A stretch of 64,000 nt of DNA, taken from NCBI GenBank assembly GCA_011033025.1, contig WFMF01000199.1, forward strand, positions 1-64,000. Reading direction: 5' to 3'. The stretch comes from Beroe forskalii (lineage: Eukaryota; Ctenophora; Nuda; Beroida; Beroidae). The notes beneath the pieces were generated by a model. The model was not told where the DNA came from. It was given only the letters and a program-made list of their open reading frames with translations, and did no database searches. This document shows, one piece after another, positions 19,025 to 62,300 of this stretch. Positions within the stretch are counted from its first letter, which is position 1. Each line of letters starts with the position of its first letter. The position numbers were made by a program, and so were the translations under genes.

Positions 19025-19430
19025 GCGGCCCAAAGTATGTTACATGTAATATTAGACTGATATTAGGAAGAGGCAAGATCTTATGCCTCATCAGTAATCA
19101 TTTATACCCCCCACCTCATACCCCATACCTCACGCTATCATAAGTAGGTCAATCAGTCTCACCACTGAGGTATTTCGCTGATTGAAAACACTGGGCATCA
19201 CGTCATGGTATCTCGTCACACTGCGGTAGAGTAATAATGAGAGTGATAATGAGATCCAGAGATATAATGGTATCTTGTCACACTGCGATATATCTCATGC
19301 TATCTCACAACATGGATAAGGTTCTCCCATAACCGCACTGGTCCAAACATCATGCAATAAGTTCTCACATAACTGCACTTTATCAGTCCATATCACCATA
19401 TCATGTTACGTATCTCGTTACTGCTAGTAT
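19025..19430 (+). repeat. Distal 3' part of the receptor-gene repeat unit
   Basis: This sequence recurs in inverted orientation at 26390-26770, 29507-29760, 30510-30727 and 31325-31720. It includes a doubled GGTATCTNGTCACACTGCG motif around a GAGATCCAGAGATATAATGG core. It marks the downstream end of each unit. The plus copy stops matching exactly after GCTAGTATATAT, where a hairpin element begins. Confidence 0.7.
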
Positions 19431-35900: not shown

Positions 35901-38900
35901 GGGTTAATACTATCGAGACAGCAATATCTAGTATCCAAATATGGTTGGATTTTTTGCAGATAAGAAGCATTTTCAATTTTCATAGCCCTACCGCTTAATC
36001 CCATGTGAAATCAATTTAAGGTTGCACCATATATAGAGTATTTTTGACTTCTTTCCCAAGTCAGTTCACGTGACCAAGCTGGCAATACTCAAATCCGTTC
36101 AGTTTAAACGCCGCGCACGAGAAATAGGCGGTCCAATGTCATCAACTCACTACATCATGATAATATGATAATGACGTCATCCTACCCGCCTATTTCTCGT
36201 GCGTGGCGTATAGTTCTTCTTGCCACTGAATCGCACTGCAATAATTAGTATCCCAGGAATATTTCTCACAATGTCAGTACAATATTTAAGGGAGTAAGGG
36301 TGACAGTTTGCGTGAAATGTCGAAACAATTTGCTGCAAGGGGTGTCAGAGTGCTGAATGTGACAAGTAACTAAACATTTAATTACCCTTAATTACACGTA
36401 ATTAATTACATTCTAAGCACTTAATTACTCTGTAGAAGTACAAACTGTATGTAGATTGAGTCTTTGTCATGTGTATACTGTATAGCAACAAGAGGAAACA
36501 TTAGGTGTATAAAATTGAACACTGAAATTGGATGGGTATATTATTGGCTCCGATAGAGGAGAAGCCTTTGCCTTTTTCATCGCCTTAAAAAGAAATTGAG
36601 CGTAGTTAGGCAGATAACTTCTTGAGTTGAGGCCATTGGGGTTTATTACCCAACTGGTACTTATAGTTAAGCGTTCAATAGTTTGCATAGTTACCTGCCC
36701 TCTGCTATTTAGACTACTTGGCACGCCAACATATCAGCCTCGCCGCTCGCGGCACGACCGTTACTCCTCAGACTTAATTGTTAAATGTGAGGAGTCCTGG
36801 CGTTTGGCACAGTGCATCTTCGGAAGCGCATCTACATACATATTGGCTCCCATTCAGCACAGTGTTTTATTTAAAACTAAAAGCTTTATAACTCGTGAAA
36901 TTATTTATAATTCAAACTAAGTAGCATAATTTTTGATAGATCTTAATTCCAAGAAAATGAATCTGAGCCCTTAACAATGAATATTCCTAACTTACTAGGT
37001 ATAGATAAACGAGACTCTTGCACTTAAAGATTTTAAATCCAGGAGTCACGACTTACATCAATTATCGGTGTTCAAAGCGCACTTATTCTTCACTCGACTA
37101 ATTTGTCTTTGTTCGATCTTTGTTCGATCATGCTGGCAGTAGTATAATGTACAAAGTACAATGTACATAGACACGCTCCTATTGGGTATATTTTTTGATA
37201 CCTCCCGAGGATTTAGAACCTCGGCCCGGTAAATTTGGCCCGAGCCCGTAGGGTCTTAATCACATACGGACCCAATCAGACCCAAGTTTCTATCTATTAT
37301 AGACCTTCATGAAATTGTCAGATGGTTATATAATAGTACATGCAGTCCGCAGTATAGTACATACACATTACACGTTTAAAGTCGTCAGTCGCCTTATGTC
37401 TGGAGTATTGAGTAACAGTTACTCAGCACTGTCGTCTGGCGAAACAGTTAACACCAAACTGTTATATAATATATTGACACAGACAGTTCGATGATGCACA
37501 TACTCAAAACCCGGCAGATTTTAACACGGAGATAACACCACGTCATATTGGTAGAAAGTTCTGGATTTTTCAGCACAGTACAGACTCTGCAGTGCGCTCG
37601 CCAATGGCTCTTTTCAAAAAGTTAAAAACAAGTAATTTTAAACCTACTTATTACGGTTAAACAGCATATTACGGTTATTGGAATTACAATCACAGTCATC
37701 ATCGCTGCTTCATTTTGCCTTCTTTTTACCCAGAAAGTGCGAGAAATGGGGATAAGAATATTCTGAACATAAACCAGACGTTTACTCTTTTACTCAGTTT
37801 ACGAATGGCACGTGCTCAATCACGCTGCGATATAGATGATAATGATTTGGGTGATTAGCTCATACTTTGCTCTCTCGTTTTGTAGCCTTCTTTTGTAGCC
37901 TAGAAAATACTGCAACCTAACATTGTAACCTAACTAACGAAACCTAATAATAAGAGCGATGTGCGGTCTAATTATGCGAAGAGTAATTATAATATGTGCA
38001 TAAATTAATGTGTACACTGCTGGATATCGGAAAGGTTGAAATGACGTCATTATCATAGCTGAAAGTGGAGAGTTGATGAGGCAGAAGCGCCTTTTTTCAT
38101 GCACGGATATCGAAATGTAGATTGTTGGTAAGTGTGATCCTATTTTCTTTGTACTTTATAATTATTACTTTGGCGGAACCTCAGGGGATCCAGAGTGAAG
38201 AGTCCTTTAGTCTAAAGTCGAGGAAAATTAAAAGAAATCAAAAATTTCTTGAGAAATTAAGAATTTTAGGGATCACATTGTGTTATCATTTATCACACCT
38301 CTAAGAATATGATATAAGAAATTACCTATATCACATGTGTGGCACAGTTATGGCATATCGAATTGCAACTTAAACTGTTGGACCAAATGCAATGTGGTTT
38401 TGTCCTGGAATGAAAATTTTGGATGTACTTACAATTTTGCATTAATTGTTTGAAGTGTCTAGCTCAAAACATGCCCGCTTCTGGAGCTCAAAAATAAATT
38501 TAAAACACAGATCGCTGATAGCCTGATAATCATCAGCTCACCACATGAGACCCTGATAATGACATCATCAACTCACCACATGAGACCCTGATAATTACAT
38601 CATCAACTCACCACATGAGACCCTGATAATGACATCATCAACTCACCACATGAGACCCTGATAATTACATCATCAACTCACCACATTAACCCCTGATAAT
38701 GACGTCATCAACTCACCACATGAGACCCTGATAATGACATCATCAACTCACCACATGAGACCCTGATAATTACATCATCAACTCACCACATGAGACCCTG
38801 ATAATGACATCATCAACTCACCACATGAGACCCTGATAATTACATCATCAACTCACCACATTAACCCCTGATAATGACGTCATCAACTCACCACATGAGA

Positions 38901-41900
38901 CCCTGATAATGACGTCATCAACTCACTACATTAACCCCTGATAATGACATCATCAACTCACCACATTAACCCCTGATAATGACATCATCAACTCACCACA
39001 TTAACCCCTGATAATGACGTCATCAACTCACCACATTAACCCCTGACAATGACGTCATCAACTCACCACATTAACCCCTGATAATGACGTCATCAACTCA
39101 CCACATTAACCCCTGATAATGAAGTCATCACTCACCACATTAACCCCTGATGATGACGTCATCAACTCACCACATTAAACCCTGATAATGACGTCATCAA
39201 CTCACCACATTAACCCCTGATAATCATCAACTCACCACATTAACCCCTGATAATGACGTCATCAACTCACCACATTAACCCCTGATAATGACATCATCAA
39301 CTCACCACATTAACCCCTGATAATGACGTCATCAACTCACCACATTAACCCCTGATAATGAAGTCATCACTCACCACATTAACCCCTGATAATGACGTCA
39401 TCAACTCACCACATTAACCCCTGATAATCATCAACTCACCACATTAACCCCTGATAATGACATCATCAACACACCACATTAACCCCTGATAATCATCAAC
39501 TCACCACATTAACCCCTGATAATGACGTCATCAACTCACCACATTAACCCCTGATAATGACATCATCAACTCACCACATTAACCCCTGATAATGACGTCA
39601 TCAACTCACCACATTAACCCCTGATAATGAAGTCATCACTCACCACATTAACCCCTGATAATGACGTCATCAACTCACCACATTAACCCCTGATGATGAC
39701 GTCACCAACTCACCACATTAAACCCTGATAATGACGTCATCAACTCACCACATTAACCCCTGATAACGATGCCATCAACACACCATATGAAAATGACGTC
39801 ATCAACTCACCACATTAACCCCTGATAATGACGTCATCAACTCACCACATTAACCCCTGATAATGACGTCATCAACTCACCACATTACCCCCTGATAATG
39901 ACGTCATCAACTCACCACATTAACCCCTGATAATGACGTCATCAACTCACCGTAGAGCGCTTGAACGTTGTAGGCATCCCCAAGACCCATGTCCAGCTTA
40001 TTCTTGAACTCCTTTATCATCACATTCACTATCTTGGTAGATGCTTGCCTGAAATCATAGCGGCATGTTATTTCAGTGGCATTTCTGATAAACTTTATCA
40101 TGATTTGATTTATCACAAGGGCAACAAACAAGTTTGATATCCGATGGCTTTCGGAACCCCAGATTTGATTCATCTATGAAGCTATGACTAGCGGTGATTC
40201 TGGACACAATTCTAAACTCAAATCTGAGTTTACTAACCTAAATTGGGATATAATGACAACAATTAAAACATAAAACGAAACTGTCTCTTTCCTTAGTCTG
40301 AAAATTGTGGTTATTCAAAATTTGGACACGAGTCTTGAAACACCCTGTATATGGGCTATTGGGCTAACCTTATTGAACCTTATTGCTTTATTGAACCTAA
40401 TTCCTGATTCCGTGGGTAATTCACACCACAGAATCAAATGATTACATACACAGTCACAACGTGACAAGTTACAAGAAATAGGAGGTTCAGAATCTGAACC
40501 TCCTATTTCTTGTAACTTGTAGTTGTGCTATATGATATTTATGGTAGTTTGCGCCGCGCATACGAAAAATAGGGTCGATTCAATACCTAAGCAACTCATA
40601 AATCATAATATGATACTGACGTTTATCTGATAAACGTCAGTATCATATGATTTATGAGTTGCTAAGGTATTGAATCGACCCTATTTTTCGTATGCGCGGC
40701 GCAAACTACCGTAAATATCATATACTCATATAGCGCAACTATATAGTTTAGGTACTTCATTATGTAATTTATTTAAGATATTATGTAAATCTTCCTACGT
40801 AGTGCTATATGCTAAGTTTTACTACGTAAGTGAGCCTTACAGTTACCAGCAATTCAGTGGTTTAAGTTGCAGTATATTTTTTCCGTCTAGATTATATATA
40901 CTGGTATTTTCTACAGTGTAAAAGTGTTGTAAAAGATCTTACTGTTTTATTTTACAGTGCTATGACGTCAAGTAATATTATCATATTGATGTCATCGATT
41001 TGATTCACAAATGTATGGAGCACAATGTATGAAAAATCACGCTAAATAACGAAAATGAATAGAAACTTCTAGGCCCAAAATCGCAGAAAATTAAGAAACT
41101 TTTGCCCAACAATTTCAATCAGTTTCTTAGAGTTGAAATTATAAAACTGAGTGTAACTGTAATTTCAATTTAAAATCAGAATTGTTATAAATTGTTTTCT
41201 ATCACAAAACTGGGTTTATTTAAGAAAATCACGAAACTTTGGGCTAACAATCCACTGAGTTTCTAAGAAAACTGAGTGTATTAATTGTACAGTGTACAAT
41301 TCTAAGTAAACTGAGTGTATAATGTATTTGTGCAGTGTATACTGTATATATTTTTAATTCACCCTGCCTGTAGTCACACATACAAACTCGGTGATCTGAA
41401 AATGAGCGGGGCATTGGCATGTAATTTGCATAGGTATCATTAGTTAATAGTGTAGTACACTCTACATGGAGGTTATCTCGTTGAACGAGAAAGGTATATG
41501 TACCAAGAGTGCCATATATAGAATTAAACCGTATACTGTATATACTCACAATGCTCTGCTGTAAACTGTCTGTATCTGCCTTGGATCTTTGTTACAGTGG
41601 AGTCCTGAGGCAGAGAATCAGATTACTTGGAAATGACATGAAGAATTTGCCGAAAATGACAAGAAGAATTTGCCGAATATCCCAAATATAATATGACCAA
41701 AATATGCGTATGGAACTAAAGATGACGGCGTTTTATTTTGTTTTGAAGATTATACTACTACTTCGTTTCCCACCAAATCAGATTAGTAAATTTCTTGTAA
41801 AATAATAAAGTGACTATAAATAATGATGCTGTAATGATAGAAAGTTAGGTGATTTTATATGAAGAGTTAGGTGATTAATGAAGAGTTACAAAGAAGGTTG

Positions 41901-44900
41901 CTAACTGATTGCTGATGGAAATATTATGCAAACAAGTACAGTCGCATATAATCATTCATATAATATTTCTTGTCCTAGGGAAGACTAAAATTGGTAAAGC
42001 CTGAAGTCATTAACTAACTCCATATCACTCACAGTGAAACCCCATTTCCATCAACTAAATCTACCAAGAATGTGCATTGTATGTGTTCCAAACATGCGGA
42101 AATATTACATTCTGGCAATTATAATTTATAATGAATCCGGCAGAGTAAATAAAATATTACAGGATTTAATATTAATATGCGTTTCATTAGCACTATCATG
42201 ACGCAGTTAGCTTCATATTCGAGACATAATAGAACCGACCAAATTTATGGAATCATGGAGTTTAATATAATTTTAATTTTAGTTGAATATATGAAATATG
42301 CTGAATATGAAATATTCCCAAAAAAGTTTCGGACAAACAAATAAAATATTATAAATACCGGTTTTAGAAAGATTTTTGGAAAGATTTTATTCGACGCAAT
42401 GCTGGCTACAGAGCACTATTGTACGTAGCTCATGCCCCATTGGCCATACTTTATAAGTTTATACAGGATTAAAGAATAAAAGTACACTCTTGGACAGCGT
42501 GTTCCATGGTAGTATAACGTGTGGTAAGATTAAGTGTGGTAAGATAAAGTGTGGTAAGATAAAGTGTGGTAAGATAAAGTGTGGTAAGATAAAGTGTGGT
42601 AAGATAAAGTGTGGTAAGCTAACGTGTGGTAGGATAAAGTGTGGTAAGATAACGTGTGGTAGCTTGGTTGGGAATATTCACCATTTGCGAATAGACTGCA
42701 ATGAGAAAATGACGTTTTCCTCTGTCAATTTACATGAGTACTTTCGTACACTTTTCATTGATTTTGTGGAAGAAAAACATACAAATGTCTACTGTCTAGA
42801 CTTGAATGTCTAGATCTGAGAAGGAACATATTGAGAGGTTTTGTAACTAGCAAAAATTGCAAACCGCGATATTATGCACCGAGCGCGAAGCGCGAGGGCA
42901 TAATAACACATTAAGACCGAGGCCGAAGGCCGAGGTTTTAATGGAAGGTTTGCAGTTTTTGCGAGTTACAAAACCGAATTATGCAACGACAATACATCTA
43001 GGTATATATTTCGGTTCAATTATGTATAATTCAAGCAAGAATATGAGAATATTTAGTGTTATTGGCTTGTCCAGTATTTGAGATATTATGATAAGTGCAG
43101 CTACTGTATCCTTCAGAGTTCAGTGTGAAATCTGCGGTCTGTCACCCCAGTGTTCATTTTTAACACCTCTCCCTCCTATAGTAAGGTCACGTTTTGAAAA
43201 ACACTAGAGCTTAGAATGCCAAAATGGTTTTATTATCAACTGTAGTTCCATTTTTTGGCACTGTAGTTCCACTTTTTTAAAAGTGTAACTGTTTTAGCGT
43301 ACATAACGGGTATAAAGGAGCACTGCGTAAACCTCCTTAGAAGTTGCATAATGTCATATAATGTGTCGACAGCAGACTTCCAGACCCTATTAGTGTTTCA
43401 TCCAACATACACATTACACATGTCTAAACTAAAATAAAAGTGGTGAAACTTCGAAGTTAGAAGATTCTCGAAATTTCGTCGGCGTATAAGTTTTCCCGTG
43501 GGATCCTGACATTGACCAATCAGCATGCGACTTTACGATCAACCCACGCGATGATTGGTCTAACTTACACTAGACACAAATCTGGACATTTACCAGACGC
43601 AAGTCTAAACTTTCGTCTAAAATTAATCAATGGGGAGGTTTTCACAGCACGAACTTACAGTTTGCTCTATTTTTGTTCTATTTTTGTATTTTTGCCCGTT
43701 TGTTCCACGGAGCAACTGGCACCAACTTGGCACTAACTGGCACCAACTTGATGTGAGTGGGTGTGTGTATATTTTGTTCTATTTTTGTTCTTGCGTGTGA
43801 CACACACAAAACAGCCGGCTGTGAACAAAAACACAGTATTATATCCCTGCACTAAACCCCGCGCGCGAAACTGGCGGGTAGGATGATGTCATTATCATAG
43901 CTCAAAGTAGTGAGATGATGACGTTCAACTGCCTATTTCTCTTACGCGTCGTTTAAATGTCAAAATGAAGAACGGTAGGCGGCATGAGACGCAGTACACG
44001 AGTATACCCCAATGGATTAAAGTGATGTAATAAAGTGTCAAATTATAGCATGTCAGAAAGTCTGACACTGAGTTAAACCAGACTTAGGTAACCAACTAAA
44101 GTCTTAAATATTAAAAACCTGAATAAGTTAATAATACTAAATGATATCAGACACTCAGATATATGATACTGTATGTATACTGTAATATATACCAAAATTT
44201 ATCGCGGTTGCATCTCAATTAATAACTTGAATTTCACGAAGTTTCACTTCGCTGAGCCAAGAAGAGAATACAGAAAATAATTCATTTTATTGCATCTCGA
44301 TTCCTTTCATGAACTGGATCTGACAGACGAGAATATTATATTTTCCTCTGAACCACAGACCAGATTCCGAGTCGAATTCCACGATCTTCAACATCCCTTT
44401 TCCACGAGAACATGACGACTGAGACCGATATCACTTCCAGGGATTAGAATGGCCAAGTATCGACCTTGAACCGCCTATAATACAGTCCAGTGCGTGCGAC
44501 ATACAGAATGCCAAATCACCACCTAAACCCCGCTCGCTAAAAATAGGCGGTTCAATACGTCATCAACTTGCTACATCGCGCTATGATAGTGACGTCATCC
44601 TACCCGCCTATATTTCTTGTGCGCGGGGTTTATATATGGCGGACGCTGCGATGACAGGCTTTTAATAGCGGTTTTATATATGGGATATATTATATGTAAT
44701 TCACTACTGACACATGTGTTTTGTTGGAGTTCAGTGACAGCATATTATGTTGTATGTGTGGTGTTATGAAAACACTGGCGGCGTTTTATAGCTCAATATA
44801 TCAAACCGTATTCAGAGCTTCAAATCTTCTGAAATATCTGCTGACCAATCAGAGCGCAAGTTCACGGATACCTCGTGCAGTGATTGGTCCATGTCAAGTG

Positions 44901-47900
44901 TGCAGTGGGTAATACACCGCCAAGTGTACGAGTGGTGCAGCCAAACTAATTCAAGCTTTCAAGCCTGCTCTTCCTTTATCATGTTTATAGTGGTCACAGC
45001 AACTTAGTTCTTTTAATACGGTTCGTAATAAAAAAGCTCTTCGGGCTCGAATTATTAGTTCGTGACCGAATAATTACTTATATGATGCCTGAATTATTGC
45101 TAATCTTTTCAACGTCATCCCTATTAACCCAGATTGGACAGCTTTTTTGTTTCTCGATGAAAATCGATGAAATTTTAGTCAGTAGGTGCCATTGGTCTAA
45201 CTTAAAAAATAAATCAGTATTTTTGAGTATATGTTTTACCGTTCTCGAGAAATCGATGGGGTGGAAATCCACCCCTTTGTCCAATTAGCCAGAGGTCGTT
45301 CGAAAAAAAAGTTTCATAAAATTTCAATCTGAATGATTTATTTCACTATTTATATGGTTTGGTACGGTGAACAAAACTCCTTTTTCGAAAATATTTGTCC
45401 GTTCAGGATTTTGGGGTGGAAAATCACCCCTTTGTCCAATATGAAGTATGAAATTTCAGATGATTAACAAATATGTTTCCATTGAAAGAGTAACGTGCCA
45501 AGCTGATTTTTGGCGATTTCTGTGACGAAATATTCACGCTAGAACTGGTTTTACCTACGAAAATGGTATATTTTCGGGATTTGGGGTGGAAAATCACCCC
45601 TTTGTCCAATATGTGGGTACAGGTCGAAATGACGAAAATCGATCTGAGGGCCATAAAACTGAATTGTACGTAATTTTTTCATTATTTCGGTATTGTATAG
45701 ACGCCTTTGAACAGAATTTACAAGTTTGGAAAGGTTTGGGGTGATTTTCCACCCCTTTGGCACCCGAGACCCTGGTTTTTGAAGGCTAAAATCTTGAATA
45801 TCAGAATTCAATAAAAACACTTCGGTTACTGACATTAAGTTTTTGTGCACAAAAATTATAGTTTTGGTGTCGTATTTACGTTGTTGCCATTGCTCTTATT
45901 CTGCGAATAAGAGCATTTGAGGCGTTTGAGGATACAAAAAATGAAATGAGAAGGATTTCCGAACCTCTGGGATGAATCAGACCAAAAACTCTAGAAGGTA
46001 AGCTGTTTTGGTTCTCTTCTAGGTTATTGCTCTGGCAGACTTACAGTAGCGGCTTCCCAGATGTCAGAGCACTCCGGTCATCTCTTTGGTACTAAGCAGT
46101 ACCACAGCAGTTCTGTGGCATAGCCATAGTGCTGTTGGAACCTATCCAAACTACTATTTGATATGACAGAAGATGTACATAGTGCTGTAAAACGGCAGCT
46201 TCATGATAGTCTTACAGCAGTGTCACGGCAGTTTGATGTAGTATCAGAGCAACACCATAGTAATCTTATGGGCCAGGGCAGTTCCATATGGCCGTGCTAC
46301 TGCCATTTTCATGATACAGCAGTAATAAGATAGAGGGTACAACGGCAGTTTCAACTTTCAAGTAAGCCCCAGCAATACTATAAGAATACTAACATACTGG
46401 AGATTGGATGTGCTACGGCAGTAAAACGGCAGTCTGGTCGTTTTTCAGCTTTGCTGCACATACTAATATGCAGCTTCACAGACGTTTAATGGCAGTGCTC
46501 ATGAAAGACCATGGCATTCTTATTTGAAAGTAATAACAGTATCACTGAAGAGCCCCTCTGAAGTACCAGGACTACAACAGCATTGCCGCGGTAGCGGCAG
46601 TGACATAGCACAACGGCTGTGTCACGGAGGTTAAGTACTGCATGCAAGGGCAGCACCACTTCTCCGTTGCAGCTACTACTTTTTTATAGCAGTGCCAGTA
46701 TGACGTCGGAACAGGTGAATTGCTAATCCAATAGATTTATAGAATTACTGAGGTATACGATATACAGTCGACAATAAAACTATTGCCGCTTTACTACCAG
46801 ACCAGCTTTGCAGTGATATAACAGTTAGGTGCCCTGTTTCTAAAGTGTTTTTAAGTGCCTTATTGTCAATTGAATTGTCATGATATAACATCGATGATGC
46901 AGTTGCATTATTGAAATAAAGCTATAGCACTGCTTAAACACCACCGTAGCCCTCTGGCAGTGACTGGTTCTTCCCAAGATCTGCCTGCTGAATTATTAAC
47001 CCAGTGGTTCTCAGTGACACGATATGTGATTTTGCTACTAGCGTTTGAATACTATCAGACAACCATAAAGACTGAAGCTTGAATCTGCCATTGTAGATTC
47101 TGTCATATCGCGGTGCTGTGGTGAGTACTAAGTACCAGCAGTTAATTGTACCATGCTACCATAGCATAACTGGGTTGGCCTGCCACATGACTGCTGTGGT
47201 ACTGCTAAAGTGCCAAAGTGATGTCGGGGTACCGCATTGGAATGTATCAGGGAGGGCAAAACTAACAGTCTGCGACTATCACTACTTTGATGACCAAAAC
47301 AGCTAACCTCCAAGAATTCTTGGGCCGACTCTCCCCAGAGGTTCGAAAATCCTTCTCATTACCTTTTTTGTTCCACAAATATCCTCAAATGCTCTCATTC
47401 GCAGAATAAAAGCAATAACAATGACGTAAATGACACCAAAACTTTAAATTTTGAGCACATAAACGTATCTTCCATTTAATTGTCGGTAACCGAAGTGTTT
47501 TTTGATGAATTCTGATATTCAAGATTTCAGCCTTCAAAAACCAGGGTCTCGGGTGCCAAAGGGGTGGAAAATCACCCCAAACCTTTCCAAACTTGTAAAT
47601 TCTGTTCAAAGGCGTCTATACAATACCGAAATAATGAAAAAATTACGTACAATTCAGTTTTATGGCCCTCAGATCGATTTTCGTCATTTCGACCTGTACC
47701 CACATATTGGACAAAGGGGTGATTTTCCACCCCAAATCCCGAAAATATACCATTTTCGTAGGTAAAACCAGTTCTAGCGTGAATATTTCGTCACAGAAAT
47801 CGCTAAAAATCAGCTTGGCACGTTACTCTTTCAATGGAAACATATTTGTTAATCATCTGAAATTTCATACTTCATATTGGACAAAGGGGTGATTTTCCAC

Positions 47901-50900
47901 CCCAAAATCCTGAACGGACAAATATTTTCGAAAAAGGAGTTTTGTTCACCGTACCAAACCATATAAATAGTGAAATAAATCATTCAGATTGAAATTTTAT
48001 GAAACTTTTTTTTCGAACGACCTCTGGCTAATTGGACAAAGGGGTGGATTTCCACCCCACCATATTGCCCAGGTTATAGGTCTCAAATTTGAGCTCCACA
48101 TGAAGTGAAAATTGGTACTATGAAAATTTAATCATTCTGCTACAAAAAGCAACCATTTTGACGTCATATAAGTCGAAATTATGAGTACAGTGGCACGTCA
48201 AAGTGATCGAATTGAAATTTCGGATTTTCACCATTTTTGGGGCCACCGTGCAGCAAAACTATTTTATAAAATCCTAAATTTTTTTCTATTCTGAAAAATT
48301 CGATCATAAGCATAAAAATAGTTTCCAGCACTAGAGAAGTTACCAGCTCAACAGAATAGCGCCATACTCTGAGGGTCTATTTTCCACCCCTTTGGCATAT
48401 CTGGGTTAACTTACAGCTTGATGAGTGCAATTAATGAAAACAAATGAAAACAACTTTTAATATATTTTGTGAGTTAGCCAGCACATGTTAGACGCTTAAA
48501 ATGGCGCCAATCAATAAAGTATACGCCAAACGGTTCACAGCCTCAATAAGATGGACGGATATTTTAAATCAAGGTGGTGATTAGGGAATTAAATCATTTG
48601 ATCAACTGCACTCTCAATAACTTATCATTATACATTATCACAACTTTGATTGTATGAAGTAGTGCAGTTGTAAAGTTTAAACGTCATTCCCAATTATTGA
48701 ATAGGCGTCAGTTATATAAGAGTTGAAGATATGAAAAGAATGCCGCGTGGATGTCATCGGAAAATAAATGTTAAAAACCGCACCCAAGTGCTGTTCAGTC
48801 TCCACAACAGATTATTTTCTAAAACTCGAAATGATAATTGTATATTTGTATGTTTTCACCAATCTATCATCATTCATCAAAATAGATCTGTGTATTGGAC
48901 GACATTTGAAACAGCTGAGAAACGAAAGTCAAAAGTTTGTCTTGGTTGATGGAATTACTCCATTGTGTTCATGAGTTTTAGGTAGTTGAACAAACGAACA
49001 TAATTAATTCATCAAACCTATTCATGCTATTGGCGAATAGTCCAAGAGAATATCATGGAAGATTAGGTATGAAAGTTTATAGGGCGGGGACAAGTCTAAT
49101 TTTGTCTAATTTTGTCCAATTTTATCCAACGATTTTTTGTCCAATTCTCAAATATGAGGTTAACCTTGCACAAAATTTAACTTGACCCCGCGGACATATG
49201 TGAAACAGCTGAGAGACGGCGAATGATCGACATACCTTGAGTTATTTCATTCATGATGTCTTGACTGAACGTAACTCTGAGAACCTGATGAGATGTCAAT
49301 CATCTTAAAATTAGCTAATTAATAATCTAATTATCAATTAATTATCAAGAGTTACATAGCCGCTTTGCATGGGCTTAAAATTGCGAAAAGCAATCAATTA
49401 AAAACTACACAGTACACAATACTCTGTTGATAAAAGAACAAAGTGTAAACTCACTGCACTGAACTACAGTGAAACTACAGTGTCAACCCACTGCAGTGAA
49501 ACTACAGTGAAACTACAGTGTAAACTCACTGCACTGAACTACAGTGAAACTACAGTGTAAACTCACTGCACTGAACTACAGTGAAACTACAGTGTAAACT
49601 CACTGCACTGAACTACAGTGAAACTACAGTGTAAACTCACTGCACTGAACTACAGTGAAACTACAGTGTCAACTCACTGCACTAAACTACAGTGTAAACT
49701 CACTGCACTGGACTACAGTGAAACTACAGTGTAAACTCACTGCACTGGACTACAGTGAAACTACAGTGTAAACTCACTGCACTGAACTACAGTGAAACTA
49801 CAGTGTCAACTCACTGCACTGATCTACAGTGAAACTACAGTGTCAACTCACTGCACTGTACTACAGTGAAACTACAGTGTAAACTCACTGCACTGTACTA
49901 CAGTGAAACTACAGTGTCAACTCACTGCACTGTACTACAGTGAAACTACAGTGTAAACTCACTGCACTGAAGTGCAGTGAACTACAGTGTAAACTCACTG
50001 CACTGAACTACAGTGAAACTACAGTGTAAACTCACTGCACTGAACTGCACTGAAACAACAGTGTAAACTCACTGCACTGCACTACAGTGAAACTACAGTG
50101 AAACTCACTACAGTGAAACTACAGTGTCAACTCACTGCACTAGGGTTGAGGAAGTCTGTGAATATCTCGTTGGCTGCTTTCCTGATGTCTTTAGTCAGCT
50201 TCTCCTGGCGTTGGTAGTGGTGGACGCACAGTGCAAACAGCTGAAACGAGCACGGTGCAGAAAGGGGAAATGTTGAAAAAAAGGGGAAATGTTGAAAAAA
50301 AAGGGGAATAGGGTCGAGAAGGGAGAGGGTATAAAAAAGGGTACGGTGCAAAAAGGGGAGGGTGCAAAAAGGGGAGGGTGCAAAAAGAGGAGGGTGCAAA
50401 AAAGTAAGATTGGGTGCAAAAAGGGGCAACAAGGGCGGTGCAAAAGGGGAGGGTGCAAAAGGGAGGTGCAAAAAGGGAGAGGATGCAAAAGAATGAGGGT
50501 GAAAAAATTTTGCAGTGCAAAGGGAGGTGCAAAAAAGGGAGGTGCAAAAAAAGTGAAAAGGGACAAGGGTGTAATAAGGGGAAGAGTTAAGATTATAGGG
50601 TGCACAAAAGGAGAGGGTTCAAAGAGAGGGAGCTAGGGTGCAAAAACAGCTGTGAGCGCAAAAACAGCTTGGTATTGGTCATTGGATTCATCTTCGTAAT
50701 GGAACAAAACTAAGGGCGTTGGTACTGCAGTCAAGGGCATGTAGTTTGTATGTTTCCAGGCACAAAAGCATGGAGTTTTCAAAGCTTTTGGAAGAGGGAT
50801 GAAAAATAGAGGCTTCAATACGTGGCAAGTTGACGCAGTGAATGACAAAGTTAGCTTACATTTTATGGTGCCTGGAGGTTGCACTAAAATAGCAATAGCT

Positions 50901-52543: not shown

Positions 52544-53681
52544 TTTACCAGCAGACTATATTACATTGCTAATACACACTGTCTGACATCATCAAACCAC
52601 TAGTATACACTATGAGCATGACATATCATTCAGCTGATAATTAATTTTGTGTGACCTGCATTCAATTCCTAGGTAACATGAGCCACATCTTATTTGGAGC
52701 AGCATATTAAATTCCATGTTACATATAATTTTGAAGGGCGATAATTGCAGAAATGTATGTAAGAACGTATTATAATGTAAGGCCAAAGAATGTTAAATAT
52801 CATGAACGTTCACTGCAACTGTTTCATGTACAGCAATGAATTAATCAAAAATTCGCCTCTATAAGTCTATACACCATTGGAATCGTCCAGTGTTCCTCCA
52901 GCATAGATCACGATTTTGGTAAAGTATCAGAAAGCAATTATACACAGCAATTATTAAATGTCATCATTTTATCTTTTAAATATACCTAATACATACATCA
53001 GTATAAACATCATCCGCTGCAAACATAATCATCAGCCTATCACAGTACTGTGCACCGAGAAACAACACGAAAGCCCAGAAAATAATGGTTATAATGGTAT
53101 TGAAAGGAAACACTATCTTTCTGAGATTTTTAGAGCACACACAAATTGAATTATAATTCGAGGTTATTTACAAACATGGAGAAGAACAGTGATGCAGTGA
53201 CAGGATCTAATTATCGCTATTCATTTCTCTTCAAACAGAAATTAATTCAATGGTTGATTATGTTCTTTTATCTTCACTAATAAATCTATTTGGTATATCA
53301 AGTTGCCAAGCATTATATATTGAAGAAATCTGTGATTTGGGATACATAGAATTAATGTTCAAAAGAAATACAATGAAATGGTATTATCCTTTGTCTGAAC
53401 AATCATTTATCTAACAATTATCAATTACTTATTATACTCAAAGTAATTTGGGGATCACCATCAGTAATTATTAAACAATTTCCAACACTGAATAACTGAA
53501 TTAAGTTTCAATAAATATTTCAAAAATTGAACACTATTTACCATATAATAAACATTTCCACTTTCTCTGCATTAACAAAAATATACATACACAATTTAAT
53601 GTAAGATTATGAAATAAATAAATCACTTTTTGAATCAATCATTTCCATTTATGAATTTCACCTATATTCAAATTTGGGCAA
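52544..53681. other. Intergenic region between COASY and RhoGEF
   Basis: Very AT-rich. It should contain the COASY 3' UTR and the RhoGEF promoter. No gene or clear CpG-rich promoter was seen. The small frame at 52958-53149 has no support. Confidence 0.4.
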
Positions 53682-55850
53682 TCAGTATTCCTGAAGATTG
53701 TATCCCATGGATTTTCGAACATTGCTTAATAGTTTTCCACTTTTTTCCTGAGACATCACATCTAACTCTGATCTCATTTTATCACGTGCCTTGTCTTCAA
53801 AGTTCTTTTTGAAGTAGTCAGTTTTAAAGATGTGCCTGTTTCCCTCAAGAAGCCTTAACATGAGCTCACATTTTGTTGTCTTCTGCTCATCTACAATTTT
53901 CTCAGTTGTGAAAATTGAAGGTAAAATCCTTTGATCACCTTCATCAGAACAGAAAATAGCTGCTCTCATCCAAATATCTTTGAACAATAAATTAAATTCT
54001 GAACAAGAGACAGCCTTCTTTAACAAATTTGAGGATATTTTGATATTATCCATCACTTCATCAGCAATGACTTTGTCAACACAATTACTTTCACAGAACA
54101 TTTTAAACATAGCTTCAAATGCTCTGATACTAGAATTCTGAACATGGAGAGTAGTAGCTAAGAAGAATGCTGCAGTGTACAAGACCAAATGTTTATCCTC
54201 AGAGAGGTCCAATGTTTCATCAATTGCCCTCAATGCTATTTCTAAGAATGATTTGCTCCTTTCAGTCCTTAGTATATCCTCAAGCCATTTATATTCCATA
54301 TCACCTGTACAAACACTGCCTCTGATATATTTCCACTTTTCTTCAATAGAGTGATGATCATGGCAAAGTTTATTATATCTAATCCTAGCCTCCAATTTGT
54401 CCCAAGCTGCATCTATATATGCCTGAGTAACCTCGTACTCCCAATCTGAACATAAGATAAGGTCAGCATGTGAACACCTTTCAATATTAGATAATTGAGA
54501 AGCAATACGCTTTTCAGCATCTTCAGGAGTCAAATTATTTCGTTCTATCAACCTGTCTTTGGCAAGCTCTGGTGATGTTTTTGCAACCCAAATTTCATCC
54601 ACAAGATTTTGCCACCCTGCTTCTATTAAAACTGCAGCTTCAACAACAACTACATCAGAAGTGTTAGATTCTATGACTTTTGAAAGTTTTTCAGCTATAC
54701 ATGGCCAAACAATGTCAGTTAAACATTTCATTTGGTTGGGATCATTGAAAACAATTTGTCCCAGTACTTTTCTATTGATTGTTTTGTCAGCAGCTACTAT
54801 AGAATCTCCAAATTGTTCGATCAATTGCACATATGCTGACTCTCCAGGCTTATATACATCATGACCAATTTTATCACAGTCAATGGTTTCTATCCCTTTA
54901 CTTCTCATGTAAGCAGACATAGTACTTTTTCCTGAACAAATACCACCTGTCAAACCAATAACATATGGTATCTTTTGTTCTGAATATCTTCTTAGCCATG
55001 GAATATCATTTCGAGTTATCAATTTCCCCAGCATACATTTCCTACTATCTGATGAACTAATTTTTTCACTATTTTCATCAGGATATATAAGATCAATGCT
55101 ATAAGAGTCTAGTTTGTTTAATCCTCTCTCTGTTCTAAATTTGTTTATACTATGAATGCTGTTTGCTGTTTCTTGAGATGTTACTAGCAAGTCTAAGTCA
55201 GGCTCAGTTCCAGATGGACCAATGGGGTCTGAAATAGGAACTATCTTAACATCAAGTGTGGGATTTATGACCTTGAGGAAGTGTGAAACATTATCCACCC
55301 TTTCATCAAATGATTGAAGCAACACAGCAAATTTCTTATTTTTCAGTAGCTCCTCTTGAGTGACACCAATTAATAATTTTTCTGAGCACAAGATAGATGC
55401 TGATGACAACAATAGTTTGTGACCAATGTGTAAGTCATCAAATGTACCACCTAAAACCCCAAATCTATGACTCTTCCTATAACTACCGGAATCTGTTTCA
55501 TCTTTGGTTGATACATCACACATATTAAGATGCATGAATTTTGTTCTTTTCCAATGCATAATTTTACTCTGTAAAAGATTCAAATGGTCTACATCCTTAT
55601 CAAAAGGAGATATATACAAATCAATGTCATCCAAGTGTGTATATTCATCCAGTGGTATGCCACAGCAAAGAAAGTATAAATCTATTGGATGTCTCCTTTG
55701 GTATATTTTAGATATCATTTCAGGACTTAGATTTTCTTCAGAAAAGATATAAAGTTTCTTTTTGGTGATTTCTGCTGATTTAGTGACAACTTTATCCATA
55801 AAACTCAACGAAAAAGAGGGCATGACTCTGATCAAGTTTGACTTAAACAT
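53682..55850 (-). CDS. COASY: Bifunctional CoA synthase (PPAT + dephospho-CoA kinase) with C-terminal HD-like extension
   Basis: Catalyses the last two steps of CoA synthesis: adenylyl transfer to 4'-phosphopantetheine, then phosphorylation of dephospho-CoA. It is a single 722-codon exon. PPAT domain at about 130-285: GGTFDDLHIGHK (nucleotidyl-transferase HxGH at 141-144) and ISSSDSRK (264-271). DPCK domain at about 296-490: P-loop GLTGGICSGKST (299-310), DCDKIGHDVY, VVVEAAVLIEAGW and a RI.sQ lid segment. The human protein ends soon after this domain (564 residues). Here about 230 residues follow. They include LCHDHHSIEEKWKYI, an FATT-like helix where HD proteins have HD, and a closing HIFKTDYFKKNFEDKARD segment typical of COG4339 HD phosphohydrolases, so I infer a degenerate HD domain. 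The start is the first ATG after an acceptor (TTTGTTCCAG, ending at 55862), implying a 5' UTR intron. Confidence 0.92.
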   Translation of the reverse strand: MFKSNLIRVMPSFSLSFMDKVVTKSAEITKKKLYIFSEENLSPEMISKIYQRRHPIDLYFLCCGIPLDEYTHLDDIDLYISPFDKDVDHLNLLQSKIMHWKRTKFMHLNMCDVSTKDETDSGSYRKSHRFGVLGGTFDDLHIGHKLLLSSASILCSEKLLIGVTQEELLKNKKFAVLLQSFDERVDNVSHFLKVINPTLDVKIVPISDPIGPSGTEPDLDLLVTSQETANSIHSINKFRTERGLNKLDSYSIDLIYPDENSEKISSSDSRKCMLGKLITRNDIPWLRRYSEQKIPYVIGLTGGICSGKSTMSAYMRSKGIETIDCDKIGHDVYKPGESAYVQLIEQFGDSIVAADKTINRKVLGQIVFNDPNQMKCLTDIVWPCIAEKLSKVIESNTSDVVVVEAAVLIEAGWQNLVDEIWVAKTSPELAKDRLIERNNLTPEDAEKRIASQLSNIERCSHADLILCSDWEYEVTQAYIDAAWDKLEARIRYNKLCHDHHSIEEKWKYIRGSVCTGDMEYKWLEDILRTERSKSFLEIALRAIDETLDLSEDKHLVLYTAAFFLATTLHVQNSSIRAFEAMFKMFCESNCVDKVIADEVMDNIKISSNLLKKAVSCSEFNLLFKDIWMRAAIFCSDEGDQRILPSIFTTEKIVDEQKTTKCELMLRLLEGNRHIFKTDYFKKNFEDKARDKMRSELDVMSQEKSGKLLSNVRKSMGYNLQEY

Positions 55851-56799
55851 ATTTTCAGACCTGGAACAAAGAAGGTTAAAATTTTAAGAACCATGGCTCT
55901 GAAAATATTAATAACAGGTAGTCCACCATAACATTAGAAAACCATACCAAACACTAAAAGAACAGTAAAAGCAGCAATTCAAAGAATTGATATTAATGTT
56001 TGCATGATATGAAGCAGTTAGATTGGCATAGAAAACTTACATGTTAGGCTATGACAAGAACCAAGGATATGGAAGGGTCTATGTAACACTGTCATGTTAC
56101 AGCAAGAGTACATAGATTTGGGGTTAAAGTGGATGCATTTCATGATTTACTCATTAGAAATAAACATAGCTTCTTCAGATTACTGTATAACCATCTGAGT
56201 TGATACCAATGCATAGCAAATGAATCAATGGTAAAATGTTGTTAATTCATCAAATTTGTTCTGCTTTATCCAGCACAATCCTCATATAATTACAAAACGC
56301 TCTCACAACGGAGGGCAAGAGACTGTTTTGAGGGCTTCATTTATCAAAACACCAGGTTAACTTTGTACTGACTACTGCCATAAAGGACTAAGATCACTGA
56401 AATAACTTTAATCACACTGTGTACAACATAGAACAACATAAAACAGTTTCTGAAGCTGAAAATTCAGTGCACAAATTTTGACCATTCAACTCATGAAACC
56501 ATCTGTGAACCCGAATGTCCAATTGATACCAAAAGACAGCGACTGTGCACAGCGTGCATGTGCGTACGCATACTTAGCATGCTTTGAAATTGCAAGATAC
56601 ATGTTAGTGTTACAGAGCCTAATTTTGGCAATTTCACAAGTCACCAGTACGAACAAACAGGGGCACATAGCATGTGATAGGTATATTTTGTGTAGCTCTC
56701 AGGCAGCGTGTTGTTTCTCGTTGATATTTGCTTTAACCAGATCCTGGTTTTATGCGCACCACGCGGTTCCTAAGCCTGCATAAGTAAGTGTCGTGTACG

Positions 56800-58060
56800 C
56801 GCCGCGCGAGCCATACAGGGTTTAGCAAACCGCGCGGCGCTGCAGCTCCTTGCTCATGACATCCTTCCTTGTTCCTTCGACGGACGTTGCCCGTCTATTT
56901 CTTCTGACTGGAGACAGCGGGTAGGTCTCCCATATAAACGGGAGCCTTCATTATCTATGACAATGACGTCACTCAGAAAAATATAATTAAGCGCACCTAG
57001 CGCTTTAAGGACTAAAGTTAGGGTCAGGATTAGGGTCAAGATTTGTTAGGGTTAAGGTTAGGATTAAGGTTAGGGTTTTGGTTAGGGTTATGGTTAGGTT
57101 TAGGATACAGAAAAATTGACGTTTAGATCTGTGACGTCACTCAGAGCCGTTTATTTGGGAGAGATACCAACCAGCGTTGCTAAACGCGTATATCCCTGTT
57201 ATCGTCGCGCAGCGCGCTTCCGTAGGGAAGCGCACGGCGCGTACACACACCTATGCGGGCTTAGGTAGCCAGACGTTGCCTGCGAGTCGGGGCGCGCGCG
57301 CTTCGCGCGCGCGAGGGGGCCAGGCAACGACTGGCAAGGCTTAGGAAGAGACAGCGCAAAGTTTGTGTGACGTTGACAGACCCTCTCGACGATCAGCGCG
57401 GCGCTGTTTCTCATGATCGAGCTGACGCCAGCCGCTTCGCGGCTGGCGCGGCGTCAGCGGGTCATACATCGTACGACAACGCAAAGTGACGTGGCCAGAT
57501 GTTGAACGTTGCGCCGCGCGCGAGGACAGGGTAACATCTTATGAGCAAGATACGTATTTCCCTGTTCGCGACCTATTGCGCGGCGCGTTTACCCTTAGGG
57601 AAGCTCTATATAGCTCTACGCGCTCACTTGTCCTACGTTAATAGGACCTATTTTGCGCGCGCAAGCGCGCGTGTTCGAAGCGGAGCAAGGAAAGGCGCGT
57701 GCGCGCGCGAACAATCAGGGACACGGCATGTTGCAAGCGCTTATTCAGAATTCACACTTATACGGGCTTAGGAGGCACGACGCGACGGCGCGCGCGCGCG
57801 CTTTTTCGAAACAAAAACATGAAGCGCACACTTTACTTTTCCAAAAAACAAAATTGTACGGTGTCGTACGCACGCGCTTGCGCTGTGCACGCCGTTGTTC
57901 GGCGGACGCGCGCGCTTCGCGCGCGCGCCCGTCGAAGGCGAAGGAGTCAGACAACGTTTGACAGGCACGCCGCGCTGCGTAGCTAACGCAAGCCACTGCG
58001 CGGTTCGATTGTTCCAATCAGCGTGCCACACCGTGCTACAACATACAAGAGTCAGCTTCC
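56800..58060. repeat. GC-rich patchwork of dispersed repeats and CG hairpins
   Basis: Contains the CCGTCTATTTCTTCTGACTGG segment (also at 13138), CGTACACACACCTATGCGGG (also at 11333) and GTTGCGCCGCGCGCGAGG (also near 13204). Hairpins occur at 57290-57320 and 57900-57930 (CGCGCGCGCTTCGCGCGCGCG) and at 57421-57458 (GCTGACGCCAGCCGC with TTC loop). The alternating CG is Z-DNA-prone. Long overlapping frames here (57653-58109) are Arg/Ala-rich products of CG content. Confidence 0.65.
57015..57105. repeat. Interstitial degenerate telomere-like repeat (TTAGGG)n
   Basis: About a dozen TTAGGG or near variants (GTTAGGGTTAAGGTTAGG, GGTTAGGGTTATGGTTAGG) in about 90 bp, plus-strand G-rich. It is too short and degenerate for a telomere. 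Confidence 0.75.
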
Positions 58061-59339
58061 ACGCAGTGTCCTGTGCCTCCGAAGTCCGAACGGCCGACAA
58101 CAATGACAAGCATCCTTTTTGCTATCCTAATGATTTCATTTTGCAGTTGTTTTACATTAATTGTGTCGAACATACAACAAATTAAGCTCTAAATGATGAA
58201 TTTGATGCAATTGAATTTAAAGTGCAAGGTAATATTATGAAAATGCATTGAAAATCTTTCATGATCGCGCACGCGCGCTTCGTCACTTACTCATTACTGC
58301 CGATGCTGCATTGTTGTGCTTTAATGGAATCCTCCGCAGGGATTCCTCACGCGTCGCTTCTCGAAATGTCAGGAAGCTAAGAGGGAAGAGAGTCATGATA
58401 TATCATAGTCATGTATCACAGTCATGTCTCAGGCAATTGGCTTGTTTTGGTCACGTGTTCTGCTGTGACTCTTGCTTTGGTTCTCTATCCGTTAAGAGTT
58501 TCCCGTACCACTCCCGTAGAATTCCCGTAGGACTCCTGCAGGACTCGTAGTATACTCCCGTAGGACTCTTAGTACTTGTAGTACACAGGATGCAGTGAAG
58601 AAATGACTTATCGTCCGAGTGTTTCGCTTGCGAGATAAAGAGTTCTAAGCAGGAATCTATCTTATAGAAGTGATTTGTCATGGATTTGGTGATGTTTGTA
58701 GTGCAATCGTTGCTGGATTATATCCATCTTTGTAAAAGACTGCTATTTCTCTCAACTTACCGAGCCTTTTTGGATGGATATTGTCGTGAAAGCCGGTTGA
58801 TATTGCTTTGAAAAGTTTGTAGGCTATCTCAAGAAACAAAGAAGTGAATGTGAACGTTGCCTTGTTCATTAAATGGAGGGTCAGATCAATCATATCAGTT
58901 TAAACCGGACTCTTGACTCACCAGACTCCGGCACAAGGCCCTTCGTTGGAGATCATTTAAATTCATTTTATCCTGATTAAATACTTGATTGGGTAGTAGT
59001 ACTCCATCAGACGGACACAGACGCATGCAGAGGCACTGTTACACCGATAGAAAGACAACACAACCACACATGATCACAAAATCTCATTCATTATACCCTT
59101 ATTTTCAAGACGTTTGATTTGTCTTTAAATAGCTTCACATTCATACTCCGATATATAATTTTGTAGAGACCCACTTTTACGCCCCATATCTCTCCTTTAG
59201 TGTAGTGCCCCATGGATTATTTAAGTTAGAAATAATTAAATCAATCAATTAATTAGTGTAGTGCCCCATGGTGAACCCCTGGTGAAGAGCAAAACATACC
59301 TCCCTCGACGGTCTATGGATAGTTTGATGAGTAATTTGA

Positions 59340-62300
59340 ATGAGTAAACAAGACTCCACCGTGGCGGACGTTCCACCTCAGAAGCGACAGAAACTAGAGC
59401 CCCCCGAAAATGGAGGTATTGTATACGATGTTAATGATTCATAAAATGTAATAAGTTTCATGTATTTTATCCCCCCTCTCTCCACCAAATGGAGGTATGC
59501 AATCTATTTTCTACACTATAGATTGTATAGAATGTATTCAATGTACTTTACACGATTGTATAAGATGAATCCAATGCATATATATACAACATATCATGTA
59601 ATTCATCGTGAGTTATACAACAAATATATGAAATATTATTTGTGCTATGGTATTGTATGAAATGTTTTTGTACCATGTGAATTTTGTGCTAATGTGAAAG
59701 TTTTATGAAATGTTTATTGAACATTGTTTCAGGGGTCGTTTCGGTAATTACAATGTTTATTTGCGAAAATTTTGCTAATTAAAACGTCGCTTTGGTATCT
59801 TAATTCTTTAGGCATGCAATACCAAATTTGCTACATACATTCATCATGAGATTAACTGCCAAATCAAGAAATTTATATTGCTCAACCCGTAAATCCACGT
59901 TTAAGCCATTGTACCCCTCACAGTGAATGCCACAAGATAGCAATGTGGAGAACAGTTATCAAGTACTTATTTCAGGAGGGGATATGTACGGGGGTTTGGG
60001 GGCATGGACCCCCACAACTTTATCAAGTACCTATTTCAGGAGGGGATATGTACGGAGGTTTGGGGGGCATGGACCCCCACAACTTTAATCAAGGATTTAT
60101 TTCAGGAGGGGATATGTACGGGGGTTTGGGGGGCATGGACCCCCACACGAACGGCGAGCAGTTCAACGGCATGATGCAGCAGCCCCCAAACATCACCTAC
60201 AACCAGTCCATGATGGCTCCCCGCTTTGCTCCAGTTGACCGGGTGAGCAGTCCAGATACTTTTAAAAATGCGGATTTTAATAATTCTTGTTCTTTAATTG
60301 TTCTTGTTCTTTAATTGTTCTTGTTCTTTAATTATTCTTGTTCTTAAATATTTCTTTATTTCCTTATTTCTTTATTTCTTTATTTCTTTATTTCTTTATT
60401 TCTTTATTTCTTTATTTCTTTATTTCTTTATTTCTTTATTTCTTTATTTCTTTATTTCTTTGTTTCTTTATTTCTTTATTTCTTCATTTCTTTATTTCTT
60501 TATTTCTTTATTTCTTTATTTCTTCATTTCTTCATTTCTTCATTTCTTTATTCCTTCATTTCTTTATTCCTTCATTTCTTTATTCCTTTATTTCTTCCTC
60601 TCCCAGGCGATGTACCACCCGGGCCCCGGAGGAGCCCCCACCAGCTCCGCAGCCTCCTCGCAGCCCATTTACCAGAACCAGCCCGTGATGACCACCGCCC
60701 AACCCACGCCCACCCAGCCCATGATCGGGGGCGGGCCCCAGTTCTCCGGACCCCAATACCAGCCCCACATGATAGCCCCTCCCAACTACAACCCCAACCA
60801 CTTCTCACACAGAGTCCAGACTATGAGGACCTACCCGCCCTACCCGGGCAACATGATGCCTCATCAAGGTGAGTTAGCGTGGTGCCTTAGCAAGGTGAGT
60901 TAACAGGATGCCTCATCAAGGTGAGTTAACGTTAAGGTGAGTTAATATGATGTATCATTAAGGTGAGTTAACGTGGTGCCTTAGCAAGGTGAGTTAACGT
61001 GGTGCCTTAGCAAGGTGAGTTAACATGATGCCTCATCAAGGTGAGTTGGCATGATGCCTCATCAAGTTATTTAAAGGTAAGTTCAAACGTTATGCCTCAT
61101 TATGGTTAGTTAACATGATGCCTCATCAAGGTGAGTTAACGTGGTGCTTATCAAGGTGAATTTACATGATGCCTCATCAAGGTACTCTTGTGTGGGCGTG
61201 TAGTATAAATTTGTGACCGATTTCGTATCAAAACTTTTTTCTAACTTTCTCATGTTTCTAACGGATTTTAACGTAATTCTCATCTTCTCATTTCTCCAGC
61301 GAACCAGCCGATGGTGATGAACCAGAGACAGATTGGTGGTCCTCACCCTGGACCAGCCCCCGATCAGATGGGTAACATCATGATGCCAGCACAGATTACT
61401 AACTTCCAACCGGTAATGATTCATTACAGCGGAGAGGGGCAGGTCAAATTTTGCCTGATCATGTTTTGGGGCAAGATTCTATATTGGAAAGAATTGAATT
61501 TTGCCTCCCTCCGGAATTTGTCACGGAAATATCATCAATTTATCTTTCTAAGCCATTATTACCAAAGCCGAAATTACAAGATATACGTACTTATTCTTAA
61601 AAACATGCCGGGCTCTGTATATCTGGGCCCCTTGAGCAACTGTTGACTCCGTTGCTTTCTCCCCAACAGATTTTCCATTTCATTTTGATCGACTTGGTAA
61701 TCTTTTGTCATCCCCTTCTTAGTTCTGACCCTTTATCGCTCCTTATAGAACCAGCAGATGTTCCCGCTCAACTCGGGCAACAACTCGGACCACTGCCGCC
61801 TGATCCAGTCACAGCTGGTCCTCCTGCTCCACGCCCACAAGTGCCAGCAGAAGGAGCAGACCAGCGAGTGTCAGATCCAGGTATTTAAAATAAGTCAAAA
61901 AAATCACATAACTTGAACAGTAATTATGGCATGACTGATCAGGCTAATCCAATTGAAATATTTAAGTATATCAGAGCACAATCTCGGAAGAGCAGCAAGT
62001 TTTTGCCAGGTCAATCCAGTCAAAATATATTTAAATATGAGTTCCCCACAATCACAGAAGGGCAGCTTCAGTATTCTTCAGATATTAATATTATCACTAT
62101 GAATTGATTGTTATGCGCACCATAAAACTGATTATCGATTGTTTCACAGAACTGCGGTACGATGAAGGAGGTTCTGGCCCACATGATGCAGTGCAACCGC
62201 GGCAGAGCCTGCAACGTAAGTTTAAAACATCGGGTACCTCTTCTTTACTCCTCCGAACCCCTCTTATCATTTTTACCCCCCCCCCCCTTTTTTATTTCTT

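Follow-up and report, generated by a model that had tools for sequence, protein, structure and literature searches.

In the window analysed here, the first 64,000 nucleotides of contig WFMF01000199.1 from the ctenophore Beroe forskalii, tandem arrays are located at the exon-intron junctions of two genes, one encoding a RhoGEF and the other a CREB-binding protein (CBP). We consider these arrays to be mirages, that is, tandem duplications of short segments that include or abut a junction, in a ctenophore genome rich in tandem repeats, and give this reading a probability of about 0.6. The observation is best read as frequent local tandem duplication that is tolerated where an intact splice site remains outermost. 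The units came from two sources, namely junction-spanning local copies and, in one case, the core of a dispersed element resembling a miniature inverted-repeat transposable element (MITE). The phenomenon itself has already been named in amphioxus. The arrays, delimited by Tandem Repeats Finder (TRF), and the exons that they adjoin are listed below; exon numbers are our own labels.

38530..39951, minus strand: array 1, 35-bp unit x 41.4, from the donor of RhoGEF exon 39951-40048
39951..40048, minus strand: RhoGEF exon (RGS-like domain), unique junctions, its donor beginning array 1
49442..50126, minus strand: array 2, 37-bp unit x 18.8, at the donor of RhoGEF exon 50136-50240
50136..50240, minus strand: RhoGEF exon (RGS-like domain), array 2 at its donor
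50261..50551, minus strand: 16-bp array on the acceptor side of RhoGEF exon 50136-50240, pyrimidine-rich on the gene strand (purine on the forward strand)
59340..59415, plus strand: CBP exon 1, unique junctions, open frame
59956..60147, plus strand: 66-bp x 3 array across the CBP exon 2 acceptor, TTTCAG/GAGGGG (junction at the slash) three times, from TRF and the sequence
60106..60242, plus strand: CBP exon 2, unique junctions, open frame
60276..60596, plus strand: expanded pyrimidine tract, 17 bp x 4.4 and then an 8-bp array, stopping 10 nt short of the CBP exon 3 acceptor
60607..60868, plus strand: CBP exon 3, unique junctions, open frame
60850..61183, plus strand: array 3, degenerate unit of about 26 bp in several TRF rows, including the end of CBP exon 3

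The original prediction had placed minisatellites of about 40, 18 and 12 units at the donors of the two RhoGEF exons and CBP exon 3, and TRF confirmed all three with the same exon limits, the GTGAGT motif being counted 39, 19 and 9 times on the gene strand in arrays 1, 2 and 3, respectively. The expanded pyrimidine tracts on the acceptor side and the triplicated acceptor of CBP exon 2, which had been described as well, were all present by TRF. The 8-bp part of the tract before CBP exon 3 consisted of TATTTCTT x 31 (60349-60596, TRF). The first intron bases at 39950 (minus strand), 50135 (minus strand) and 60869 were each located uniquely, as were 80 junctions of CBP, RhoGEF and PRPF8.

As in mirages, tandem arrays lie at exon-intron boundaries both here and in other genes. 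Units with an exon part and an intron part, also typical of mirages, were found at CBP exon 3, at the acceptor of CBP exon 2 and in most other clear cases. The unit of array 3 contains GATGCCTCATCAAG followed directly by GTGAGTT, which is the end of CBP exon 3 plus its donor. The last match of the array 2 unit (50107-50141) extends into the exon by only about 6 nt, and the array 1 unit starts at GT and does not span the boundary. A further array of a 15-bp unit with GGTAAG (x 9.9, 42514-42661) was not counted, because it is antisense to the RhoGEF gene and adjoins no known exon.

The identity of both genes was supported by their joined exons. The RGS-like score rose from 55.9 to 61.0 bits once the peptide of exon 39951-40048 was joined to two upstream exons, between which and this exon another exon is probably missing, judged by reading phase. 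Exon 50136-50240 joined to the exon ending at 51151 gave an RGS-like domain with an E value of 6.4e-15. CBP exons 1-30 formed a frame of 1473 amino acids without stops, which agrees with use of the first donor, and the CBP core matched solved CREB-binding protein chains (best E 1.3e-172).

The arrays also recurred in exons that the original prediction had not covered, in later CBP exons, PRPF8, spectrin, RFC, locus L043 and others, which supports this part of its interpretation. The sample beyond the window comprised 30 kb further along the contig (CBP), PRPF8, which was chosen by name, and loci fetched for other reasons.

CBP exon 20, donor: 38 bp x 3.2
CBP exon 34, donor: 29 bp x 22.7
CBP exons 12 and 16: arrays begin 10 nt into the intron
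CBP exon 17, acceptor: 57-bp repeat, the junction itself being a diverged copy
CBP ZZ exon, acceptor side: 35 bp x 5.1, ending 5 nt from the acceptor
CBP exon 33, acceptor side: 20 bp x 14, ending 20 nt away
PRPF8, donor side: 10 bp x 74.6, 8 nt into the intron, many units reading CAGGTAG
PRPF8, acceptor side: 27 bp x 5.1
PRPF8, duplicated acceptor: 57 bp x 3.8
Spectrin, donor: 32 bp x 4.8
RFC, donor: 52 bp x 2.1

Donor arrays were found in L043 too, one of them at a GPS-motif exon. At least 8 nt of exon were included in the units at CBP exons 3, 20 and 34, spectrin, RFC and two L043 donors not picked for arrays; exon sequence was also inside the unit at one picked aminopeptidase donor. On the acceptor side, the acceptor plus the exon start was copied at CBP exons 2 and 17 and at one PRPF8 exon. 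The four junctions of alpha-tubulin-like exons in locus L042 had no arrays.

The units of arrays 1, 2 and 3 were mutually unrelated, as stated in the original prediction, but this did not extend to the rest of the genome for array 1. Its unit is not confined to the RhoGEF gene and belongs to a dispersed family with at least 145 matches on at least 34 contigs (40 scored of 373 first-look candidates). In the same contig, single copies of the unit occur as the core of an element that forms a hairpin, is about 100-110 bp long (by eye) and has ends like GCCGCGCACGAGAAATAGGCGG and its near complement.

36138-36181, 43882-43921 and 44559-44599: copies of the MITE-like element, two of the three with a core bounded by GTCATC
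44559..44599, plus strand: single-copy core of the MITE-like element, two GTCATC with a spacing of 35 nt

The same spacing of 35 nt was displayed by a second single copy, which lies outside the window and upstream of CBP exon 19, and the spacing was 38 nt in the copy at 36138-36181. Paired GTCATC repeats were not found in three further element copies examined. The 35-bp family is likely derived from the MITE-like hairpin element. Since the direct repeats are spaced 35 nt, the period of array 1 is most simply explained by amplification between the GTCATC repeats; it is the array that provides GTGAGT at the end of the exon. The array on the acceptor side of the ZZ exon in CBP is a diverged array of this family. 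The units of CBP exon 3, RhoGEF array 2 and CBP exon 34 gave only own-place matches in the genome, in a search that skips very common words; they were most likely born in place because they matched nowhere else. A long, nearly perfect hairpin (GCGCCGCGCATACGAAAAATAGGGTCGATTCAATACC and its complement) at 40540-40710, about 500 bp from the array 1 exon, is apparently another foldback element (by eye).

Introners are dispersed element families at splice junctions that represent inserted introns. A similar supply from mobile elements with their own splice signals, which insert and make or re-end introns, could be suggested here, since the 35-bp family is dispersed and adjoins splice junctions of both genes, a donor in RhoGEF and an acceptor in CBP. 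In addition, the single copies at 36138 and, outside the window, at 73458 give GTAGTGAGTTGATGAC on the minus strand. However, unlike in introners, the family was seen at one end of the intron only in each of these cases, the opposite end of the CBP intron being without such an array. The three array units without matches elsewhere also conflict with this explanation, which we regard as quite improbable.

The association of arrays with junctions was compared with chance using 131 fixed junctions. Ten of them (Dr1, Dr2, Ar1, Ar2, D3, A2, A3 and one each in L014, L039 and L043) had been picked, directly or through their exon, by the reader or by pattern search and were set aside. The remaining set consisted of 61 donors and 60 acceptors, of which 19 and 18, respectively, came from loci fetched by a pattern match elsewhere in the locus. 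Junctions that could not be fixed were left out (the donors of CBP exons 31 and 32, the acceptor of exon 35, and parts of spectrin, RhoGEF and L043). Loci L002, L017, L018, L036-L038, L040, L044 and L045 were outside the junction set. PRPF8 on contig C802 was excluded past the fourth exon seen, save one acceptor, because its frame looks broken there. The p values are uncorrected for the several cut-offs tried.

Nine of the 61 donors and five of the 60 acceptors had a TRF array (score >=50) no more than 10 nt away. When 24 nt centred on the junction were required to match at 18 or more positions within 150 nt, copies were detected nearby for 6/61 donors and 3/60 acceptors, while windows within the exons, with their centres 36, 48 and 60 nt in, were copied in 0/61 and 0/60. 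Array starts were enriched near donors, in line with the original prediction. For the 61 donors, 13 start edges fell in -45..+20 versus 10 in the 2.7-fold larger zone +40..+300 (ratio 3.5, p 0.003). The corresponding counts were 12 versus 4 at score >=80 (ratio 8, p 1e-4) and 9 versus 3 at score >=120 (p 8e-4). Without the pattern-fetched loci (42 donors) the edges numbered 7 versus 6 (p 0.039), and in the strict set outside the window (34 donors) 7 versus 4 (ratio 4.8, p 0.011). Shuffling of arrays within the 35 introns of CBP and PRPF8 gave joint p values of 0.27, 0.0016 and 0.0022 at 5, 10 and 20 nt.

Several results weigh against the mirage reading. Interior intron windows were copied in 1063 of 6832 cases (15.6%; 25 of 52 introns, among them picked ones), as often as the junctions or more often, with a mean per-intron fraction of 11.9%. 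A smaller earlier set of 40 donors and 40 acceptors, picked ones included, had 4 and 3 copied versus about 14% of interior windows (554 and 538 of 3922). Part of the junction pattern is therefore background. The acceptor excess was weaker than that of donors, with p between 0.016 and 0.27 over nine tests: 6 versus 11 edges in -45..+20 (ratio 1.5, p 0.27), 5 versus 11 in 0..20 nt alone (p 0.016) and 4 versus 6 in the strict set (p 0.26). Shuffling over 52 introns gave joint p values of 0.54, 0.017 and 0.001 at 5, 10 and 20 nt, and without the picked junctions (46 introns) these were 0.81, 0.073 and 0.0005; inside introns the excess was absent at 5 nt (7 seen versus 6.8 expected). Tandem AGGTRAGT had 640 + 700 matches genome-wide, fewer than the reversed pattern (2100 + 2311). 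Taken raw, this speaks against the original prediction, but the count was given no weight, since much of the listing consists of overlapping matches within few long arrays.

Chance would account for the arrays if dense tandem repeats and short introns made contacts with junctions expected and selection on exons trimmed the array edges. Array coverage at 100-300 nt into introns was 14-20% (score >=50) and the median intron length was 395 nt (35 introns), which, together with the missing excess at 5 nt, is in agreement with this explanation. The excess of array starts at donors, which persisted in the strict set outside the window, conflicts with it, and we consider chance alone unlikely. The original prediction had likewise judged chance placement unlikely; the donor edges bear this out, but the statement was too strong in view of the interior windows and the 5-nt result. 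The donor-proximal excess is modest in statistical weight and is found mostly at up to 20 nt from the junction, not precisely on it. Arrays exceed chance moderately at donors and weakly at acceptors, depending on the tolerance.

The original prediction further proposed that splice-site sequence, or R-loops or structures at the splice site, seeds repeat expansion. In favour of such seeding, the density of array starts near donors was 3.5-8 times that of intron interiors, and the excess was clearer at donors than at acceptors. However, the period of array 1 is set by direct repeats of the MITE-like element, the other units straddle exon and intron (24-66 bp), and copying is no more frequent for junction windows than for windows in intron interiors. 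In the clear cases listed above the units carry at least 8 nt of exon too, so that a junction-spanning segment was copied and not the splice motif. Seeding by the motif is thus improbable, and this part of the prediction was not upheld.

Under the mirage reading, the duplications may arise between short direct repeats, either by local slippage of the ordinary kind or by duplication coupled to repair. They would persist since the first donor, or the last acceptor, of a series keeps the mRNA unchanged, and for the same reason the extra copies would be intronic from birth and free to multiply. The donor used within the arrays is probably the first one, as judged from sequence. Selection on coding sequence would trim the arrays at the exon edge, and the donor excess may reflect this tolerance together with the inability of arrays to spread into coding sequence. 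Some true duplication bias near donors perhaps adds to it.

A more far-reaching version is possible, though we hold it only tentatively. The surroundings of ctenophore 5' splice sites could be a genuine hotspot for tandem duplication that arose independently of amphioxus and exceeds the remainder of the intron several-fold. Such a hotspot would be fed by junction-spanning copies and amplified MITE cores, and it would steadily lengthen introns, offer competing donors and occasionally make new introns.

The many near-identical donors kept in arrays 1 and 2 could also indicate selection for donor arrays, either for splice robustness or for regulation. Against this, several donor units have lengths that cannot be divided by 3 (26, 29, 32, 35, 37, 38, 46 and 52 bp, in contrast to, for example, 24 bp), and splicing at a later donor would then change the reading frame. 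Some units have also lost the donor, such as the second copy in the CBP exon 20 array (CAGGAACG). Selection for the arrays is very improbable.

An assembly artefact could be suspected in a draft of 1134 contigs (216 Mb), in which PRPF8 occurs on contigs C1080 and C802 with differing copy numbers (5.1 versus 5.4 for the 27-bp array and 4.9 versus 3.7 for a 30-bp array; alleles or paralogs are possible). Copies within arrays differ by point changes and arrays are distributed over several contigs and genes, which leaves this explanation a very small probability. No second copy of the CBP stretch was found for allelic comparison of the array.

In amphioxus, tandem repeats across exon-intron boundaries, named mirages, have been reported in Adh3 and the globin genes BflGb6 and BflGb9 (PMC3087553) and in PGBD5 and troponin C (TnC) (PMC3902484). 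The Adh3 mirages showed length and somatic instability with splicing apparently undisturbed (Canestro 2002, as cited in PMC3087553). The ctenophore arrays are similar in being minisatellite-like repeats over 5' or 3' exon-intron boundaries in several genes of one genome, with units of 10-160 bp that have exon and intron parts. They differ in belonging to another phylum, in the derivation of one array from a MITE-like core that is dispersed, and in copy number, reaching 75 copies of 10 bp versus 3-6 units in the amphioxus globins. RNA and length polymorphism were examined in amphioxus, whereas the ctenophore arrays are known from assembly sequence. Among the titles and abstracts of one literature collection, no earlier report of junction arrays in ctenophores was found. 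Tandem repeats make up 13% of the Hormiphora genome by TRF (PMC8527503).

Intron gain from mirages was proposed in the amphioxus globin paper (PMC3087553). Gain through tandem genomic duplication of AGGT-bearing exon sequence was put forward earlier (Rogers 1989, as cited in PMC3087553) and has been described for potato RdRp (PMC4974935). The arrays here share with this model the duplication at (proto-)splice sites, but their junctions mostly pre-exist, the copies add intron length and no new intron is proven. Runs of at least 9 nt shared across both intron ends were detected in 2 of 52 introns versus 0.24 expected from mispaired ends, and runs of at least 6 nt in 7 of 52 versus 4.0. The two longer cases, a PRPF8 intron of 177 nt (9 nt shared) and a 124-nt intron in locus L041 (12 nt shared), are candidates for origin by tandem duplication. 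The latter intron (L041:6856-6979, in a DEAD-box-type gene) has AAAAGGTGGAGA at both splice sites and an (ATAACA) x 7.3 array inside.

Arrays of near-identical donors beside one exon are natural experiments on 5' splice-site choice by the spliceosome and on its tolerance of copies. If the donor excess holds genome-wide, minisatellite birth would be tied to gene structure, with a testable route to intron growth or gain, and the amphioxus phenomenon would be shown in an animal phylum far removed from it. As the MITE-derived array suggests, the core of a mobile element can turn into both a minisatellite and a donor site.

An amphioxus (cephalochordate) origin of the genome was ruled out by its mitochondrial contig (L034, 13,339 bp). 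The GFP family gave no match either, in a search whose control also had no hit. The cox1 of this contig has TGA as Trp and AGR at two positions of Arg. Arg is expected in animals at both of these positions. No tRNAs were detected in the first 10 kb by ARAGORN with the bacterial code. Two long frames of no assigned identity follow nad5, and the first opens with a duplicate of the putative start of nad3; apart from cox1, the genes were named by eye. The published description of the Beroe forskalii mitochondrion gives URF1 and then URF2 after ND5, and no tRNAs (PMC6991124). This matching arrangement points to a ctenophore that is probably Beroe-like. The B. ovata assembly is reported as 91.6 Mb (PMC11184263).

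Other features of the window are given for context.

53682..55883, minus strand: Coenzyme A synthase open frame, 733 aa from stop to stop, between the RhoGEF and CBP genes
24380-25834, 27479-28945 and 32423-33877, minus strand: three near-identical long open frames (about 485 aa), with 12-bp repeats and a 3 x 176-bp array after each
18503-19029: fourth 176-bp array, in the opposite orientation
45424-45895 (minus strand) and 47490-47892 (plus strand): near-identical inverted stretches about 2 kb apart, from the list of open reading frames

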